Source of the DNA: a virus
DNA length: 23,301 nucleotides
Direction: 5' to 3' (one strand)
IMG/VR virus record: IMGVR_UViG_3300031696_000064
Location: 1 to 23,301 of that record
The notes beneath the pieces were generated by a model. That model saw only the letters and a program-made list of their open reading frames with translations. It made no database searches and was not told where the DNA came from. Positions 7,750 to 14,659 of this stretch are shown here, piece by piece; the stretch's first letter is position 1; each line of letters opens with the position of its first letter. The translations under genes and the position numbers were made by a program.

Positions 7750-8463
7750 TTATAATGCTTCCTTTAATTTTAATGAGAAGGAGTATAACCCTTCTGCATT
7801 AAGAGAATATTGTTGTATGTCTCTTTCTAATAGTACCCTTACTAAAGGGTTATGAAATACCACTCCGGAGGCTACAGAGGTTACTGCTTTGGACAAGCCA
7901 GGAGTGAATTGTATGCGAATCTGGTTAGTTGTAGGCTGTGAGCCTGTATAGTCGCTATTGGTCTCTACTCTTGTTACTCTATAAGTCTTATTGTGATTCG
8001 AGTCTGAGATATTAAATAAGTCACCAGGCTTAGGAGTTTTATGCGTAGCAACAACATAGCTGGCGGCACTATTTGCAAGCAGTAATGTATTATTCCCTCC
8101 TGCTGTATCAGCAGTAGGGAATAAGTTAACAGGACCATCTACATAAGCTGCAAAGGTAGCATCTTGAGGTACTCTATTCTGGGGTAGAGACACATAAAAA
8201 GGCGTCATACGGCCCCTCTGAAGTATAAAGTTATAAACGGGTTCAAACTCTTCTCTTGTCATAGGATTATAACTTATGTTTATACTCCAATTTTGTTGGG
8301 ATATAGCGCGTGATACAACTCTACCAGAATTAGTCTGGTCAAACATAGTGGGAGAATTAGATGATAGAGATACAGACTTAAAGCCTTCGCCTCCAGTACC
8401 ACTAGCTTTACCAGAGTCTGTTATTAAGTTATTGGGGTCGGGTAGTATATCTGTATATGCCAT
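7750..8463 (-). CDS. Distal-tail-like minor tail protein
   Basis: A 237-residue protein between the tape measure and the tip gene. Residues about 45-95 show RAISQQNWSINISYNPMTRE followed by FEPVYNFILQRGRMTPFYV, and residues about 145-210 show KPGDLF...NKTYRVTRV...IQFTPGL...FHNPLVRVLLERD. I know this order (an 'R.w...i...pMtreEF..v..Fi..~rGr...F.v' block, then a 'pGD....n..y.V..v...P.l' block) from siphophage minor tail proteins that link the tube end to the tip hub. It is likely the distal tail ring or an adaptor of similar role. AGGAG lies 13 bases before the ATG, a long spacing. The ATG overlaps the TAA of the tape measure gene by one base, so coupling is likely. Exact structural place is inferred from order. 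Confidence 0.7.
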   Translation of the reverse strand: MAYTDILPDPNNLITDSGKASGTGGEGFKSVSLSSNSPTMFDQTNSGRVVSRAISQQNWSINISYNPMTREEFEPVYNFILQRGRMTPFYVSLPQNRVPQDATFAAYVDGPVNLFPTADTAGGNNTLLLANSAASYVVATHKTPKPGDLFNISDSNHNKTYRVTRVETNSDYTGSQPTTNQIRIQFTPGLSKAVTSVASGVVFHNPLVRVLLERDIQQYSLNAEGLYSFSLKLKEAL

Positions 8464-11400
8464 TAGTATCTAGTAGCTCCTGCTGTAGAGGGGGTATATA
8501 TTGAGGTATCTACACCTTCCATAAAGTCTTGACCGTGTGAGTTTGCGGCTTCTCTCATCATACCGATAAGAGTTCCTCTCTGATCTATAAGTAAGTCTTC
8601 CACTCCAGATGCATCTACAGCATTTATAGAGAAGTTAACATTTGTTGCACCGCCCATATCTTGCCCAGATGGTATGATATTTCCAGGTGTTTGAGGCATA
8701 AAGACTTCTGGTCCCTGCTCTCCAACTATATAACCACCGGAGGCTCTGCCTTGGTATCCAGCAAAGGCTGATGTAGGCTTGAAGTTGCCTGCTCCTCCAA
8801 CACCGGAGTCACCTCGTAAGTATCCTAGTTCTCCACTTGCAGACTTAGAACTAGCTAGGTCTACTTCGCTGCCTCTTTTTCCTATAGATACTGTAGAGGG
8901 GGCGGGTGCTGCACCTCCAACACTGCCTCCACCTTGGTAAGAAGTTCCTGCAATCAAAGCTAACTGAGCCGCGCCTACTCCAAGAATTATCCCGCTCATC
9001 ATACCTAAAACAGCCGCAAAAGCTACGGGAGCACCCGCTCCTGCTGCTACTGACGCTGCTGCTGCTGCTGCTGTTGCACTGGCCATCCCTGCGGCGGTAC
9101 TTACTACAACTTGAGCCATCATCAATTTTTTATTTATTGCAAAAGCTTTCTTTTTAACAGCCTCTTTCTTCTTCTCTAAGGCCGCTATTTTAGCCATACT
9201 AGCAACTGATTTTCCATCTCGTTTCTGTTCTGCTGCTATTTCTTTATCTATGCCGGCTATCTTGGCCTTACTAGCTGCTGCGACTATTCCGCCAATGGCA
9301 CCGATCATTGCTCCTACGGCTTGAAGTTTATCCGCTGTTGTAGCGGTACCTTCACCTATTTTTTCTGATAAAATGCCGAAAGATTCTGCCATTACCATAC
9401 TACCTTCTCCCAGCGAGGCTATTAGTTCCCCATCAGGGCCTAAAGCTCTCAAGTTAGCCATCATAGGAGCTAGCTGCTCGTTTACTACTGCTATTTTATC
9501 TGAGAATTCTAAGCTCTCAAACGTTATAGCAGGGATAGCGTCCTGTGCCTCGACTGCCGGTGTTGTAGCAGTGGCTGCTTTAGCCTTTACTGCCGCTACT
9601 GCTGTTCCTGCTAGAGCATCCGAAGTACTGCTAATCCTATCCGCAGTAGTAGCCCCCGTAGAAGCTCCTGTCACTATAGATTTCTTAGCATTCTCCTCTT
9701 TCTGCAATCCTTCTAAGGTTAGCTTCTTTTTTCTGAGGTCAAATTCTGTTGTAATATTAGCTTTTGTTATCTCAAGAGCACTATTCAGAGTTGCAATATA
9801 CCCGCTTAATCGTTTCTCTTCGTCAGGGTCAAGCATTTTTGCTGCGCGTAACTGTGCCATAATAAGTCTGAACTTCATTGCGACCATTTTACTATCTAAG
9901 TCTGCCATAGCCAACGCTGAAGTTTTCTGCAGTTCAAGCATAACTAAGGTATCGCTCTCTGTTCTTTTATGTATAAGATACACTTCATTTGCTGTGACAA
10001 CAGGAGCAGCTCGTCCAGATTTCTTACCGTAGTCTTTAAATGCATTTATTTGTGCATCAACCATAAGAGACTGCTTTTTAAGGCTCAAAGCCTTATCCTG
10101 CGCCTCTAATACTTTATTCGATAAGCCTAGAGCTTCTTTCTGGAGATTAAGGTCTAGCGTGGAGGCTTCCACAGCTGCTATACCTGAATCATTGAGTGCT
10201 TCTTCCAACACAACTTCAGCTAGTAATAAATCATTCTTTGCAATAGCATTTACGAGACCGTCATCATCTAAAGTTTTATTAGCAAACGCTGCCTGGTTAG
10301 CAAGTACAGTAGCATCATATAAGGCTCTTTTTTGCGCTACAGATTCTTTTTCAAGTACATGTTGTGCTTTCAAAGATACAAGACTAGATTTCTGAGTGCT
10401 TGCTATTAGCTTCTGTGCTTGCTTATTTACCTTCTGTACGCCTGCGAACTGCCTTATTGTCTTCAAAGAAGCCTTTAGATCTTTAACGTACTTTGTAACT
10501 TTCGAACCCGTGCCACCAAATATATCTGTAACTTTTGTACCTGTTAAAGCCTCTAAGTTAGCTATTGTACTATCTGCGAGAGCATCCCCCGCTTTAGCTA
10601 AGTCCAAAAACTGCATCTCTACGCCTTCTGCAGCTTTCAAAATCTCATCATAGGGAGTAGTAGCCTTAGCACCAAACTTATTCTGTGCCTTTTCCAACTC
10701 ACTAACGGCAGAGCCTATACCTTTTATAAAGCCTTCTACTGCGATGCCATCGTCTTGCATCTTCTTTATGGTAGTGTTAATTTCTTCGAGACCCGCCCCT
10801 GATGTTTTCAATTCTGTTAATTGATCAATCGCAGGTTGGAACAAGGTTTTCAGATCGCCATTAGACATTTCCGTTATTACTTTATCTATAGCACCAAGCC
10901 CTTCTTCGAGGGCTTTATCATCTCCAAGTGCTTTGGTTTCCGTTTCTGATGTGCTGGCAGCCAACGCTTCAGCTTTAGCTACAGTATAAGCTTCTCCTGT
11001 AAGGCGTCCTGTCTCAGTAGCCACTTTTAATTCATTTTGTAATGCAGCATTTTCCAAGGAGAACCAAGGGAGTGCTGCTATTTTCCCTTTAATTCTAGCA
11101 ATATTCGCTCCAGCATCTAAAGAGGCAACAAGAGCACTATCAGCTCCTTTCTTGGCGGCGACTGAGGCTTCTGTAGCTGTCTTTACAGCGGCTGCTTGCT
11201 CTCGTTTGTGTAGCGCTATTACTTCGGCTATCTTCTCTGCCTGCTGTTGCATAGCACCAGAAACCATACGAAGGCCTGCCATTTGCTTATCTACACCTGT
11301 TTTAAGGGTAGATTCATATTGCTTATGTATATCTCTTAGCTGCTCAATACTTTTTAATATCGCGTCTGTTCTATCTTTGACTAAATCCGGTGGAAAGAAC

Positions 11401-12950
11401 TTATCTTTCAGCAGCTCATATAAAGTATAAACTATGCTTGCCACAGCAGATACCCAACCAAAAGCACTAAGTGCCATAGCACCCGCAGCTTTTAATCCTA
11501 CACCTGTTGCAAAAGCAGCAGTTCTTAATGTATTTAGTACTCCAGTAAAGCCAGTGGCTTGTACTCCTGTAACAGTTAAGCTGGTACCATAATCTGTTAC
11601 TGATTTTCTCAAATCTGCATAACCTAACTTTAGATTAAAGTTTGAAAAATGTTGTATAGCACTAGATGCTGTTTCTTTGGCAGAGGCACGAAGATTCATT
11701 TGTTGAGCTACATATAGGTCTCTCTTTTTCTGAGTTAGGTCGGCTATGGCTCTTTTCTGCTTTTCCATTTCCGCAGTACCATCCTTATCCGCTTTCTTCA
11801 ACTTTTTGACCTGAACTTCATGCTGGGATATACTTCTATTTAGAGCTGTATGCCCTTCATCGGCATCCTCTATTGTCTTAGTCCCGTCCTCTAGACCTCC
11901 TATAAAAGAGTTCCAACCTTTGGCTCCCTTTGTAGTAGCACTTAAGCCATCTAGCTGAGATACTGCCATTTCTTTCGCAGCCAAGGCTGACGCATGCATA
12001 GCTGCGGCACTGCCAAATAGTACAGGCAAGAGCTTACCAGCTATAGTACTTACGAATAGAGCTACAACACCTACTAGAGCTCCCATATTCTCTGACAAGA
12101 ATGATGCTAATTTTCCGAACTTTAAAGTTTCATTTAAAAGCTTTACAAAAGCGTTTTTAAGGTTTACTAAAGACGCTATTAACTTATCATAAGGGTTGCT
12201 TTTGATTGCTTTACCTAGATCTCCGAACTTACTAGTTCCACTATCCAAGGTAGCGTTTGCAAATGCTTGGGTCTTTTCCACAGTGGTTAATTGAGTAGCT
12301 GTTTTGCCTAGTTCAATTGCATACGCTTCATAAGCTTGGTCAAGACGTACTATAATACCTAATTCATCCAAGATCTCAGGCTCTAGCTTTGCAGTACCAC
12401 GTATTAAACGATCAAAAGCATCGCCCATGTCTCTACCGAGAGCAAGCGAAGCGCCTCTTGCAACTTCTGCTAATCCTGTGATTTGTTCTGTTGAAAATCC
12501 TGCTGAGGTTCCAAGAGCCACACCGCGTAACGCAGCCTCAGTGCTGATAGCACCATCTGTTACCTCTTGAAGTTTTTTAACTGTTGAGTCTAAGCTTCTG
12601 CCTACCTCATTACCTAAGAACTGTACGGATTTTACCAGAGTCTCTGCTTGAAAGGCTCCTGAAAGAGCTGCGAATGCTGCTGTTAGAGCGAAAACGTTGG
12701 CGGCAAGAGTTGCGTAAGCAGCGACGAGGCCACTGCCATCGTCACCCATAACGTTACGCATTTTAGAAAAGCCTTTACCCGCAGATAGCCCAGCTTGACC
12801 AACACCTTTAAGACCTTTTACAGTTTTGGCATTAGACTTACCAAGCTTGTCCGTAGACTTGGCAACCTTATCGGCTTGTTGCGCGACTTTACCTAGTTTA
12901 CCGTCTTCTTTGACTTTATAGGTAACTTCAACAGTATTCTTTGTTGCCAC
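8463..12950 (-). CDS. Tail tape measure protein
   Basis: A 1495-residue protein that sets tail length and is released into the host envelope during DNA entry. It is Ala/Lys-rich and mostly helical, with charged coiled-coil-like stretches broken by hydrophobic segments at about residues 74-100, 288-313, 490-515 and 1273-1343. The last holds a poly-Ala run encoded by a GCA triplet repeat. The C-terminus has the GGYIVGEQGPEVFMP motif (about 1403-1418), a frequent end motif of tape measure proteins, after a Gly/Ser-rich region. At about 0.15 nm per residue the tail would be roughly 220 nm, an upper estimate. Start is GTG at 12948-12950, whose first base is the last of the preceding TAG (TAGTG). 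The position right after the chaperone pair is classical. No lytic transglycosylase or peptidase domain was recognised. Confidence 0.93.
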   Translation of the reverse strand: MATKNTVEVTYKVKEDGKLGKVAQQADKVAKSTDKLGKSNAKTVKGLKGVGQAGLSAGKGFSKMRNVMGDDGSGLVAAYATLAANVFALTAAFAALSGAFQAETLVKSVQFLGNEVGRSLDSTVKKLQEVTDGAISTEAALRGVALGTSAGFSTEQITGLAEVARGASLALGRDMGDAFDRLIRGTAKLEPEILDELGIIVRLDQAYEAYAIELGKTATQLTTVEKTQAFANATLDSGTSKFGDLGKAIKSNPYDKLIASLVNLKNAFVKLLNETLKFGKLASFLSENMGALVGVVALFVSTIAGKLLPVLFGSAAAMHASALAAKEMAVSQLDGLSATTKGAKGWNSFIGGLEDGTKTIEDADEGHTALNRSISQHEVQVKKLKKADKDGTAEMEKQKRAIADLTQKKRDLYVAQQMNLRASAKETASSAIQHFSNFNLKLGYADLRKSVTDYGTSLTVTGVQATGFTGVLNTLRTAAFATGVGLKAAGAMALSAFGWVSAVASIVYTLYELLKDKFFPPDLVKDRTDAILKSIEQLRDIHKQYESTLKTGVDKQMAGLRMVSGAMQQQAEKIAEVIALHKREQAAAVKTATEASVAAKKGADSALVASLDAGANIARIKGKIAALPWFSLENAALQNELKVATETGRLTGEAYTVAKAEALAASTSETETKALGDDKALEEGLGAIDKVITEMSNGDLKTLFQPAIDQLTELKTSGAGLEEINTTIKKMQDDGIAVEGFIKGIGSAVSELEKAQNKFGAKATTPYDEILKAAEGVEMQFLDLAKAGDALADSTIANLEALTGTKVTDIFGGTGSKVTKYVKDLKASLKTIRQFAGVQKVNKQAQKLIASTQKSSLVSLKAQHVLEKESVAQKRALYDATVLANQAAFANKTLDDDGLVNAIAKNDLLLAEVVLEEALNDSGIAAVEASTLDLNLQKEALGLSNKVLEAQDKALSLKKQSLMVDAQINAFKDYGKKSGRAAPVVTANEVYLIHKRTESDTLVMLELQKTSALAMADLDSKMVAMKFRLIMAQLRAAKMLDPDEEKRLSGYIATLNSALEITKANITTEFDLRKKKLTLEGLQKEENAKKSIVTGASTGATTADRISSTSDALAGTAVAAVKAKAATATTPAVEAQDAIPAITFESLEFSDKIAVVNEQLAPMMANLRALGPDGELIASLGEGSMVMAESFGILSEKIGEGTATTADKLQAVGAMIGAIGGIVAAASKAKIAGIDKEIAAEQKRDGKSVASMAKIAALEKKKEAVKKKAFAINKKLMMAQVVVSTAAGMASATAAAAAASVAAGAGAPVAFAAVLGMMSGIILGVGAAQLALIAGTSYQGGGSVGGAAPAPSTVSIGKRGSEVDLASSKSASGELGYLRGDSGVGGAGNFKPTSAFAGYQGRASGGYIVGEQGPEVFMPQTPGNIIPSGQDMGGATNVNFSINAVDASGVEDLLIDQRGTLIGMMREAANSHGQDFMEGVDTSIYTPSTAGATRY

Positions 12951-13354
12951 TATTTTTTTCTCTTTAGCTTATCATGTTCTCGTTTTAATTGATCTTGAGA
13001 ACTCTTAATAGCTCTTGAGTCTAACCAGTCTAATAATACTAGAAAAAACTCCTTGTCATCAGGCTCATATTGTTCTATAAAGTAAGGTAAATTTGTATAG
13101 TCTTTACCCATATAACCTATCTCGGGGTAAACACGGTTGCCTAGCATATTAAAAGTATTTAGCGCTGAATGAACAAGCTCTGGGAAGTCCTCCCAATCAG
13201 GAGGTATCTCATCCTCAATGGGCTCTTGCTCCATTTGCTCACACATCTTAAAATAACGCTCTCGCGTCATTTTGCTTTCGCTATTCTTGAAGTACTTTTC
13301 CAGCCTTTCTAGACACTGGGTCTTTTGGCTTTGATCGAAAGTTATCCAAATCAA
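12950..13354 (-). CDS. Tail assembly chaperone, extension frame (gpT-like), probably by frameshift
   Basis: This frame overlaps the end of the first chaperone gene and ends at the tape measure start, as gpT does in lambda. The listed end is a TTG with a GAGG 5 bases before it; an ATG at 13268-13270 (11 bases after the first gene's TAG) is another possible start, but its ribosome site is poor. Protein-like sequence exists upstream of that ATG (LERLEKYFKNSESK), which favours fusion to the first gene by frameshifting. The body has MTRERYFKMCEQMEQEPIED, then EIPPDWEDFP and YMGKDYTNLP, a pattern I recognise from second chaperone proteins in other phages, and the C-terminus is Lys-rich. The frame is +1 relative to the first gene. 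The best slip site I can see is TTT-CGA at 13335-13340. It probably binds tape measure protein and tube subunits during assembly and is absent from the virion. Confidence 0.75.
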   Translation of the reverse strand: MIWITFDQSQKTQCLERLEKYFKNSESKMTRERYFKMCEQMEQEPIEDEIPPDWEDFPELVHSALNTFNMLGNRVYPEIGYMGKDYTNLPYFIEQYEPDDKEFFLVLLDWLDSRAIKSSQDQLKREHDKLKRKK

Positions 13355-13730
13355 AGACTACCTCATTGAGCCAAGTATCAAATTCAGTTGAGGAACTTAC
13401 AAGAGTCTCTGCATTTTCTTCATTAAACTCTAGCTCTTTGGCAGGGTCTTGGCCTGTCATGTCTATTAGCAGTAAAGTTTCTAAGTGTATTAAACTTAGC
13501 CCCTTCCAATTCTTTACAACTGCTTTGGTAAATTCTGTTACGAACTTCTCTTCGTCTAGTGTCTCTACAGGTTGACGTGTCTTACGGTCATATTTTGTAG
13601 TAGTGCATTTCTTACGAAGACCTGTCAACTCTTTACGAGATAGATTAGCTACCTCTACCTCAAATCCTTCCAGTCCTGGGAAGTCAACCCAGACTGCTTT
13701 GGTATCAACCATTAGTGCTTTTAAATCCAT
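13281..13730 (-). CDS. Tail assembly chaperone, first frame (gpG-like)
   Basis: A 149-residue protein between tail tube and tape measure genes, the fixed place of tail assembly chaperones. Its pattern fits this family: an N-terminal VDFPGLEGFEVEVANLSRKE segment, LDEEKFVTEF, then VVKNWKGLS, and a C-terminal FNEENAETLVSSSTEFDTWL block followed by LDNF. It should coat the tape measure protein before tube assembly. A clear AGGA ribosome site is upstream of the ATG at 13728-13730. The last 25 codons overlap the extension frame; the normal product ends LQE at TAG 13281-13283, and a fraction of ribosomes probably shifts to give a fused longer protein of about 255-260 residues. Low-level fusion is normal for this family; the ratio cannot be told from sequence. 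Confidence 0.87.
   Translation of the reverse strand: MDLKALMVDTKAVWVDFPGLEGFEVEVANLSRKELTGLRKKCTTTKYDRKTRQPVETLDEEKFVTEFTKAVVKNWKGLSLIHLETLLLIDMTGQDPAKELEFNEENAETLVSSSTEFDTWLNEVVFDLDNFRSKPKDPVSRKAGKVLQE
13335..13340 (-). promoter_or_regulatory. Candidate +1 ribosomal frameshift site TTT-CGA
   Basis: In the overlap of the two chaperone frames the first frame reads AAC TTT CGA. A Phe-tRNA on TTT can re-pair with TTC one base on, and CGA is often a slow codon, so a +1 shift here leads into the extension frame. It is the best +1 site I see between the last extension-frame stop and the first gene's TAG. This is inference; a -2 shift elsewhere is also possible. Confidence 0.4.
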
Positions 13731-13741
13731 CTTTCTATCCT

Positions 13742-14659
13742 TTATGTGTGTATATAAGTAAGTTTACTACCGAGATCGGTAGTGTTGTCGTTCATTTTCC
13801 AGTCGTAAGTTTGTGTAAACACATCTTCCACACCGGACCTATTGGTAAAGCTGCAATTTGTTGCATCAAATCGGAAACCTTGTGTAGCACTCTCACCAGC
13901 TTTTATTATAAGAGGCACATCCGTTTTCCAAGTTTGTACATCGTTATTAAAATCGCTAGTGACATATTGCCCTATTGAACCTGAGAGGATTCGTTTCTCT
14001 AGCGTGAAATTCGAGGGATACATAGAAGTCGCTGCATTAGTGACTAATAGTGCATCATTGACGGTTTGGTATGGAGTCCATTTAATATCGTTCTGTAACT
14101 CTATACCAACCTTATACAGACCTTGTATAAGGTCTGTGGAGTCTACTTTAACATAAAGATAGTCTACCTTTTGCTCAGTCCGTGTGCCTCTAGTAGCACC
14201 TGCTAAACCAGGTATAGTTATAGTACTATCATTTGTCAGCTTTGACGCCTGCCCTTGAATGCCTAACTTGAGATTCTGTAATTTCTCAATTATGAATGTC
14301 CCATTAGTTATAACACATTTTTCAAGCTTATAAACGTCGTTTGGTAATTTTATATATAAATCAAAAGTATCTAAGGTATATGTACCTGTCTTAAAATCCA
14401 CTAATAGATTAAATATTGTATCTAAACTATCCTGTGTAAGTGCAGGTATAGTGAAGTCAAAAGAAGCAGGGTTAGCTTTTTTGATATTAGAGGAAGCATG
14501 TAGCTTATGTTGAGCATGTAGAGTCTTCTTAGAATATGTTTTATCCGTAAAAGTTTGACTAAAACTTATGTCCTCAGTGACATCCAGCCTAGTTGTAACA
14601 GCGGGAGACCCGTGTACAATGTAAAGCTCCGCCTCTTTTTTGAAGTTATAAGTTGCCAT
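13742..14659 (-). CDS. Second tail-tube-like structural protein
   Basis: A 305-residue protein between the major tail tube gene and the chaperones. The N-terminal half resembles a tube protein: FKKEAELYIVHG, then DISFSQTFTDKTYSKKTLH and IKKANPASFDFTIP, with alternating polar strands, and the C-terminal half could be a second related domain. Possible roles are a minor tube subunit, a tube-decorating or a tube-to-tip ring. A GGGGAG ribosome site ends only 2 bases before the ATG, a tight spacing. Its mRNA can start at the promoter at 14717-14745, and the leader contains the hairpin at 14678-14699, so expression is set separately from that of the major tube gene. No assured family; the tube call is from pattern and place. 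Confidence 0.6.
   Translation of the reverse strand: MATYNFKKEAELYIVHGSPAVTTRLDVTEDISFSQTFTDKTYSKKTLHAQHKLHASSNIKKANPASFDFTIPALTQDSLDTIFNLLVDFKTGTYTLDTFDLYIKLPNDVYKLEKCVITNGTFIIEKLQNLKLGIQGQASKLTNDSTITIPGLAGATRGTRTEQKVDYLYVKVDSTDLIQGLYKVGIELQNDIKWTPYQTVNDALLVTNAATSMYPSNFTLEKRILSGSIGQYVTSDFNNDVQTWKTDVPLIIKAGESATQGFRFDATNCSFTNRSGVEDVFTQTYDWKMNDNTTDLGSKLTYIHT

Follow-up and report, generated by a model that had tools for sequence, protein, structure and literature searches.

A conserved UUU-CGN hexamer as the putative +1 frameshift signal of the tail assembly chaperone in T5-like phages

We identified a putative UUU-CGN +1 shift signal in the overlap of two tail genes of a T5-like virus, where it would give a gpG/gpGT-type tail assembly chaperone its long form, a predicted fusion of 259 amino acids (131 + 128); we assign this reading a probability of roughly 0.9. 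Comparison of homologous regions shows a conserved hexamer, coding constraint that sits in a defined frame on each side of it and the absence of an independent start for the second open reading frame (ORF), and from these we infer that the shift occurs, that the tRNA re-pairs in the P site and that the efficiency is low. Judged by sequence comparison, it is the known chaperone frameshift in a +1 version, and as such real, conserved and functionally convincing.

The window, by which we mean the whole analysed stretch of 23,301 bases (the virus record IMGVR_UViG_3300031696_000064), carries a T5-like head and tail module on its minus strand, as identified by PHROG and Pfam matches. It comprises tail terminator, major tail protein, p140-like baseplate tube protein, ORF1, ORF2, tape measure protein and distal tail protein (Table 1). 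By PHROG and Pfam the tube, p140-like, chaperone and tape measure proteins are homologous to those of T5 and follow in the same order, and it is on this homology and order of the tail module that the link of the window to T5-like phages (Demerecviridae) rests. ORF1 and ORF2 lie directly 5′ of the tape measure gene, overlapping and in different frames as in G/GT pairs, the open frame of ORF2 running from stop to stop between 13357 and 12950 on the minus strand. Phage T5 has the same gene arrangement, its ORF2 being annotated as 'ORF131'.

Table 1 Features of the chaperone region and its neighbours, in window positions (SD, Shine-Dalgarno)
Feature	Coordinates	Strand	Details
ORF1, short tail assembly chaperone form (gpG-like)	13281..13730	-	149 aa; ATG at 13730, stop at 13281
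Putative +1 shift site TTT CGA	13335..13340	-	P-site TTT 13340-13338, CGA 13337-13335, skipped base C 13337
ORF2 as read after the predicted shift, C-terminal gpT-like domain	12950..13336	-	128 aa + stop
Two-frame overlap, both frames open	13281..13340	-	Constraint no longer in ORF1 frame
Stop closing the +1 frame 5′ of the site	13358..13360	-	ORF2 opens at 13357
TTG, possible unconserved internal start	13352..13354	-	SD duplex -6.9 kcal/mol; usable in 36/126
First ORF2 ATG, without SD	13268..13270	-	Duplex -0.7 kcal/mol; ATGAC absent in 12/126
Tape measure protein gene, next downstream	8463..12950	-	PHROG_3779 tail length tape measure protein, E 3e-73
Upstream gene, T5 p140-like baseplate/tail tube protein	13742..14659	-	Pfam PF23779, E 1.7e-15

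Scans of IMG/VR together with 18 annotated phage regions yielded 316 loci besides the window. Three of the 317 sequences had no ORF1 by HMM; among the 314 that did, 133 were identical to another over a 500-nt region around the ORF1 end, leaving 181 distinct regions. ORF2 lies in the +1 frame in 126 of these and in the -1 frame in 52, and three (L121, L139, L283) were left unclassed because they are incomplete. Homologous regions share ancestry, so that these counts are not independent, and we also counted changes on a tree of 102 of the 178 rows (77 +1 and 25 -1, thinned at 6 % difference), which corrects for kinship in part. The +1 class includes phage T5 and phages of Vibrio, Providencia, Yersinia, Pantoea, Erwinia, Enterobacter, Pectobacterium, Salmonella and Klebsiella; within the first 80 loci, all 79 with a complete ORF1 were +1. 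A tblastn search with the window ORF2 reached 6 phage records only, while ORF1 queries gave wider reach. The +1 geometry proposed for the window by a first-pass annotation is correct (13730-13354 = 376, remainder 1), ORF2 being +1, or equivalently -2, relative to ORF1. Its companion claim, that a classical -1 slippery site cannot operate here, also stands: near the end of ORF1 the -1 frame stays open for 13 codons only, and the window and 125 other regions have ORF2 in +1.

Each of the 126 distinct +1-class regions, T5 included, contains exactly one in-frame TTT CGN in the ORF1/+1 overlap. This retention of the in-frame hexamer bears out the earlier choice of TTT-CGA in the window as the best +1 candidate, and the synonymous conservation that had been suggested as a check in related phages is evident: at the site codon TTT stands to TTC as 126:0, whereas eight other Phe columns lie between 45:10 and 111:15, the most mixed being 73:46. 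The site Arg is encoded exclusively by CGN, while AGA/AGG make up about a quarter to a half at four other Arg columns. On the tree, no TTT/TTC change falls on the site within the 77 +1 rows, compared with 7-20 at each of the eight other Phe columns, and no CGN/AGR change, compared with 13-16 at the four other Arg columns. Records fetched after the motif had been defined fitted it in 6/6 cases, among them Proteus phage Stubb. In a 13-sequence alignment of ORF1, F131 and R132 are invariant and the tails beyond them unalignable, and in two regions the ORF1 stop comes directly after CGN. The conserved unit is more than TTT-C, because other in-frame TTT C sites mostly precede C, A or T: there, the dinucleotide after TTT is CC in 50 and CA in 6 cases in ORF1 (0/56 CG), and CC in 122, CT in 33, CA in 10 and CG in 3 cases in ORF2. 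In a sister lineage with ORF2 in -1, described below, the homologous Phe is followed by Ser or Thr (in one case Asn), so Arg is not demanded by the protein fold as such. On the strength of these alignments, conservation of the hexamer exceeds that of a bare Phe-Arg pair in the protein and is far beyond chance. The codon before TTT varies (AAC 72, ACT 30, AAT 15; TAC, TCT, ACC, TCC and ACG together 9), and the A-site codon is CGT in 109, CGC in 9, CGA in 8 and CGG in 0 of the regions. CGT, CGC and CGA are decoded by one inosine tRNA. A preference for these three A-site codons only was considered and rejected as not significant, since CGG, at 0/126 here, is also rare at other Arg columns.

The frame of coding constraint flips at the hexamer. 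In every 15-nt bin of 74 aligned marine sequences variability is highest at a third codon position, that of the ORF1 frame before the site and that of the +1 frame from the site on; the T5-type set (10 kept) shows the same shift in periodicity, less clean. Upstream of the site, the synonymous share of single-base codon differences is 0.82 for the ORF1 frame and 0.08 for the +1 frame (39 disjoint pairs); downstream (+6 to +54) it is 0.21 and 0.52, respectively, and in the same pairs no stop is gained or lost in the +1 frame over this stretch. Both tests are confined to regions at a fixed distance to ATGAC (81/126, 74 after thinning; 39 pairs). The stretch from +6 to +54 lies entirely 5′ of the first ORF2 Met. 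As the substitutions in the relatives indicate, constraint acts on the +1 frame from the hexamer onward, which upholds the earlier suggestion of coding sequence 5′ of the first ORF2 ATG (13270).

If ORF2 were translated separately it should carry a start. ORF1 begins with ATG in 126/126 regions, with a median SD duplex of -6.4 kcal/mol (99 % at -4 or better), whereas at the ATGAC of ORF2 the median duplex is -0.4 kcal/mol (5 % reach -4 or better), random ORF2 positions giving -1.7. In 84/126 regions the open +1 frame holds no ATG, GTG or TTG up to and including the site. As read from its sequence, ORF2 is without an initiation signal of its own and has the fusion-only character of the second part of G/GT pairs. 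Initiation at Met (13270) had been named as the outcome that would speak against a fusion, and it is very improbable that ORF2 is a separate protein made from this internal ATG through weak initiation or termination coupling, with the overlap incidental. ATGAC is kept at the same place in 114/126 regions, in many marine relatives 7-10 nt 3′ of the ORF1 stop, and an internal start is what most T5-like records give for ORF2; but it lacks an SD, is missing from the other 12 regions, and stands at a distance from the ORF1 stop that spans -23 to +73 nt, so that coupling is no conserved feature. Between site and Met the sequence is moreover under +1 protein constraint and folds as a confident helix in AlphaFold models, and a start at the ATG accounts for neither the invariant TTT CGN nor the flip of frame there. 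Some separate ORF2 product may arise from the ATGAC kept in these 114 regions. In marine relatives the first ORF2 ATG lies under a strong hairpin (window 13250-13273; median MFE -8.35 kcal/mol, 68 distinct) that could hide it, the median MFE in the T5-type set being 0 (n = 11); we set this hairpin aside as evidence, since it lies in coding sequence that is conserved (MTRERYF in the window).

An internal TTG start at 13354 with GAGG upstream, also raised by the first-pass annotation, does exist in the window, in frame, open and with the strong duplex given in Table 1. The idea fails among the relatives and has very little chance of being right: a homologous TTG or CTG start without a stop before the site is present in 36/126 regions only, the window among these, and an internal TTG therefore cannot be the conserved mechanism. 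The +1 frame opens merely 5 nt before TTT in 80/126 regions, which places a stop after the TTG position, phage T5 has no such TTG start, and GAG GTA and TTG are codons of a conserved E-V-V-F-D-L stretch.

Under the +1 shift that we favour, most ribosomes would read ORF1 and terminate at 13281 to give the short form. A minority would pause with Phe-tRNA on the P-site UUU and CGN awaiting in the A site; the Phe anticodon GAA would slip one base forward from UUU to UUC, and reading in +1 would yield the fusion. The invariance of TTTC fits this model because re-pairing of GAA from UUU to UUC requires exactly TTTC. By analogy with lambda, the short form and the N-terminal part of the fusion would coat the tape measure protein while the C-terminal part recruits tail tube subunits. 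A -2 shift at or before the hexamer, listed earlier as an alternative, reaches the same frame and is the type of shift that PMC3498833 gives for phage Mu. We hold it to be highly improbable, as by inspection of the contexts a -2 slip at AAC TTT leaves the Phe-tRNA without pairing, and the invariant third T and the invariant C after TTT, which it leaves unexplained, fit re-pairing from UUU to UUC. Transcriptional slippage would also reach ORF2, but T runs near the site extend to 3 in 79/126 and to 4 in 47/126 regions, too short for transcriptional slippage as generally described, and its probability is close to negligible.

Of the stimulators for which we looked, none was found conserved at the predicted +1 site. 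The A-site codon is CGN in 126/126 regions, so there is no stop codon of the prfB type, nor is a prfB-like SD seen by eye just 5′ of the site; the P-site codon is TTT in 126/126, not a proline codon as in phage PSA; and no conserved downstream RNA fold was found in either group of relatives. A weak upstream pairing (-24..+2) in the marine relatives, at z -3.6 against column shuffles, was dropped for its lack of covariation: 0/8 pairs change on both sides, four being invariant and four varying one-sidedly, and it lies on conserved codons. In neighbouring genes TTT-CGN is observed 40 times against 57.8 expected, with at least one copy in 34/125 loci. As it is at most mildly avoided, either shifting is infrequent or the hexamer is helped by a context that we did not recognise. 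From the missing stimulator and this mild scarcity we would expect no more than a few per cent of ribosomes to shift; such a level would fit a chaperone, the ratio in lambda being 30:1 according to PMC5009743. The window alone has 2 in-frame TTT-CGN pairs against 3.1 expected, the shift site counted in; the other, TTT CGC, is inside the ORF at 441-839.

The -1 class (L114-L138 and L238-L317, from IMG/VR) has A_AAY_TTY at the homologous codons in 52/52 distinct regions, for example in GGA AAC TTT TCG. A_AAT_TTT (10/52) is a canonical heptamer and A_AAC_TTY (42/52) is not a perfect one. Its 25 rows form one side of a single branch on the tree (100/99; 1 change). Periodicity flips to the -1 frame just past A_AAY_TTY in one length group (26 sequences) and is mixed until about +45 in a second (15 sequences). 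With midpoint rooting the lineage is placed beside the marine +1 clade, with the T5 and Vibrio +1 phages outside, which would mean one switch from +1 to -1; as the placing of the root is uncertain and the tree has flagged long branches, the switch may have gone the other way. An alignment-wide search of genome contigs gave no usable pattern.

The identity of the two proteins was assessed in structure and PHROG runs on 48 sequences out of the 92 listed (the window and 91 others). ORF1 homologues match PHROG_313 'Tail assembly chaperone' in 48/48 cases and ORF2 homologues, as a mixed +1/-1 set, match PHROG_3914 'tail assembly chaperone' in 48/48, so that ORF2 of the -1 lineage is homologous to that of the +1 class, and we infer a chaperone function for both. 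Pfam Phage_TAC_5 scores below its cut-off against ORF1 (18.3 against 27 bits). The best fold matches of ORF1, both at low Z, are YqbN 3klu (Z 5.3) and the HK97 tail assembly chaperone 2ob9 (Z 4.5), which rank 1 and 2 among 489 aligned structures, and a search of solved structures by sequence with ORF1 returned two chance matches only (E 0.5 and 0.73). For the ORF2 fold there was no convincing match among 40 aligned chains (best Z 3.1). The AlphaFold model of ORF2 has a pLDDT of 90.5, with a helix at 2-21 straight after the junction (helix pLDDT 85-90) that lies between the junction and the first ORF2 Met. In the ORF1 model the final helix (115-133) includes site residues 131-132, and the tail past it is of low confidence. 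PHROG_313 is a single profile of 258 positions with an ORF1-like and then an ORF2-like part in order, ORF1 aligning at 23-148 and T5-type ORF2 at 170-255, which suggests that some phages encode both parts in one reading frame.

The pair resembles lambda gpG/gpGT in its two overlapping ORFs between the tail tube and tape measure genes, in the short form and rarer C-extended form that are expected and in a second part without its own start. It differs from lambda in being +1 rather than -1 and in having UUU_CGN instead of the lambda -1 slippery sequence, and no sequence similarity to lambda gpG/gpGT was found in this analysis. According to the review by Atkins 2016, tailed phages use -1, -2 or +1 shifts, and the G-T type chaperone of the haloarchaeal virus HSTV-2, whose host is archaeal, is 'very likely +1' (PMC5009743). 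Listeria phage PSA and phage SPP1 likewise have +1 shifts in a tail gene (PMC5009743, PMC3498833), but as described there these fall in the major tail protein and give a tail shaft variant, not a chaperone, and that of PSA takes place on a proline codon adjoining a stop or pseudoknot (PMC5009743).

The closest likeness of the signal itself is to influenza A PA-X, UCC_UUU_CGU, described as a +1 shift with UUU in the P site, CGN in the A site and no obvious stimulator (PMC3498833). The same source places PAX-like sites in fijiviruses, chronic bee paralysis virus and amalgaviruses, notes that other predicted PAX-like sites also favour CGN, argues for PA-X the re-pairing of Phe-tRNA from UUU to UUC that we propose here, and reports for PA-X that changing UUU_CGU to UUC_AGA abolishes shifting and that the efficiency is about 0.7-1.3 %. 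In our +1 class, UUU in the P site, CGN in the A site and a +1 ORF open from there are found together in 126/126 regions, and the exact PA-X nonamer TCC TTT CGT occurs in Pectobacterium phages DU_PP_V and My1 (L229, L232). The T5 family differs from PA-X in its bacterial ribosome and in its free preceding codon, and the likeness is convergent because the genes are unrelated. Within the literature covered, and as far as seen, the UUU_CGN signal has been known from eukaryotic viruses; what the A-site codon contributes, and whether cellular genes employ such motifs, are questions that Firth 2012 did not settle (PMC3498833). CGU is a common E. coli codon (table in PMC3498833), so the idea of a slow A-site codon put forward for PA-X is not simply applicable, and a working site there would argue against simple codon rarity as the cause. 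We lean slightly towards the view that UUU_CGN is an intrinsically +1-prone codon pair for the ribosomes of more than one domain of life, that the T5 family has used it without a stimulator since its common ancestor and that one lineage swapped to or from a -1 site at these codons.

One annotated relative carries a comparable product. Salmonella phage Sw2 (MH631454.2, L319) has the same pair as a joined CDS named 'Tape Measure Chaperone Frameshift Product', whose length of 835 nt fits +1 or -2; the entry as seen gives no site, direction or conservation, and the main text of the Sw2 paper contains neither 'frameshift' nor 'chaperone'. Sw2 is the only one of 23 annotated T5-like records with a joined frameshift product, one further record carrying no annotation, and in the RefSeq record of Salmonella phage NR01 (L086 1902-2416) ORF2 is unannotated. 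A paper on a T5-like phage states of the tape measure chaperone that no frameshift signal was predicted there, 'similar to T5', and cites Zivanovic 2014 (PMC6256483). We found no description of a T5-family site in the open-access literature searched. T5 is a classic model phage. The missing signal of T5 would be the +1 site, which shows how the long chaperone form is probably made, and the annotation of many records would be corrected, 885 of them holding an ORF1 relative. Studies of the UUU_CGN motif would also gain, in the T5 family, a bacterial system with easy genetics.

Two further records with T5-like sequences stand out by their labels or size. OR848532.1 (5,281 bases), named Listeria phage LM 4-14-1, carries a T5-like ORF2 with 89 % identity to a Salmonella-type T5 phage, and its label looks doubtful. 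PP355768.1, a Klebsiella phage record with a T5-like chaperone region, is at 261 kb over twice the usual T5 genome size and is perhaps a joined assembly.
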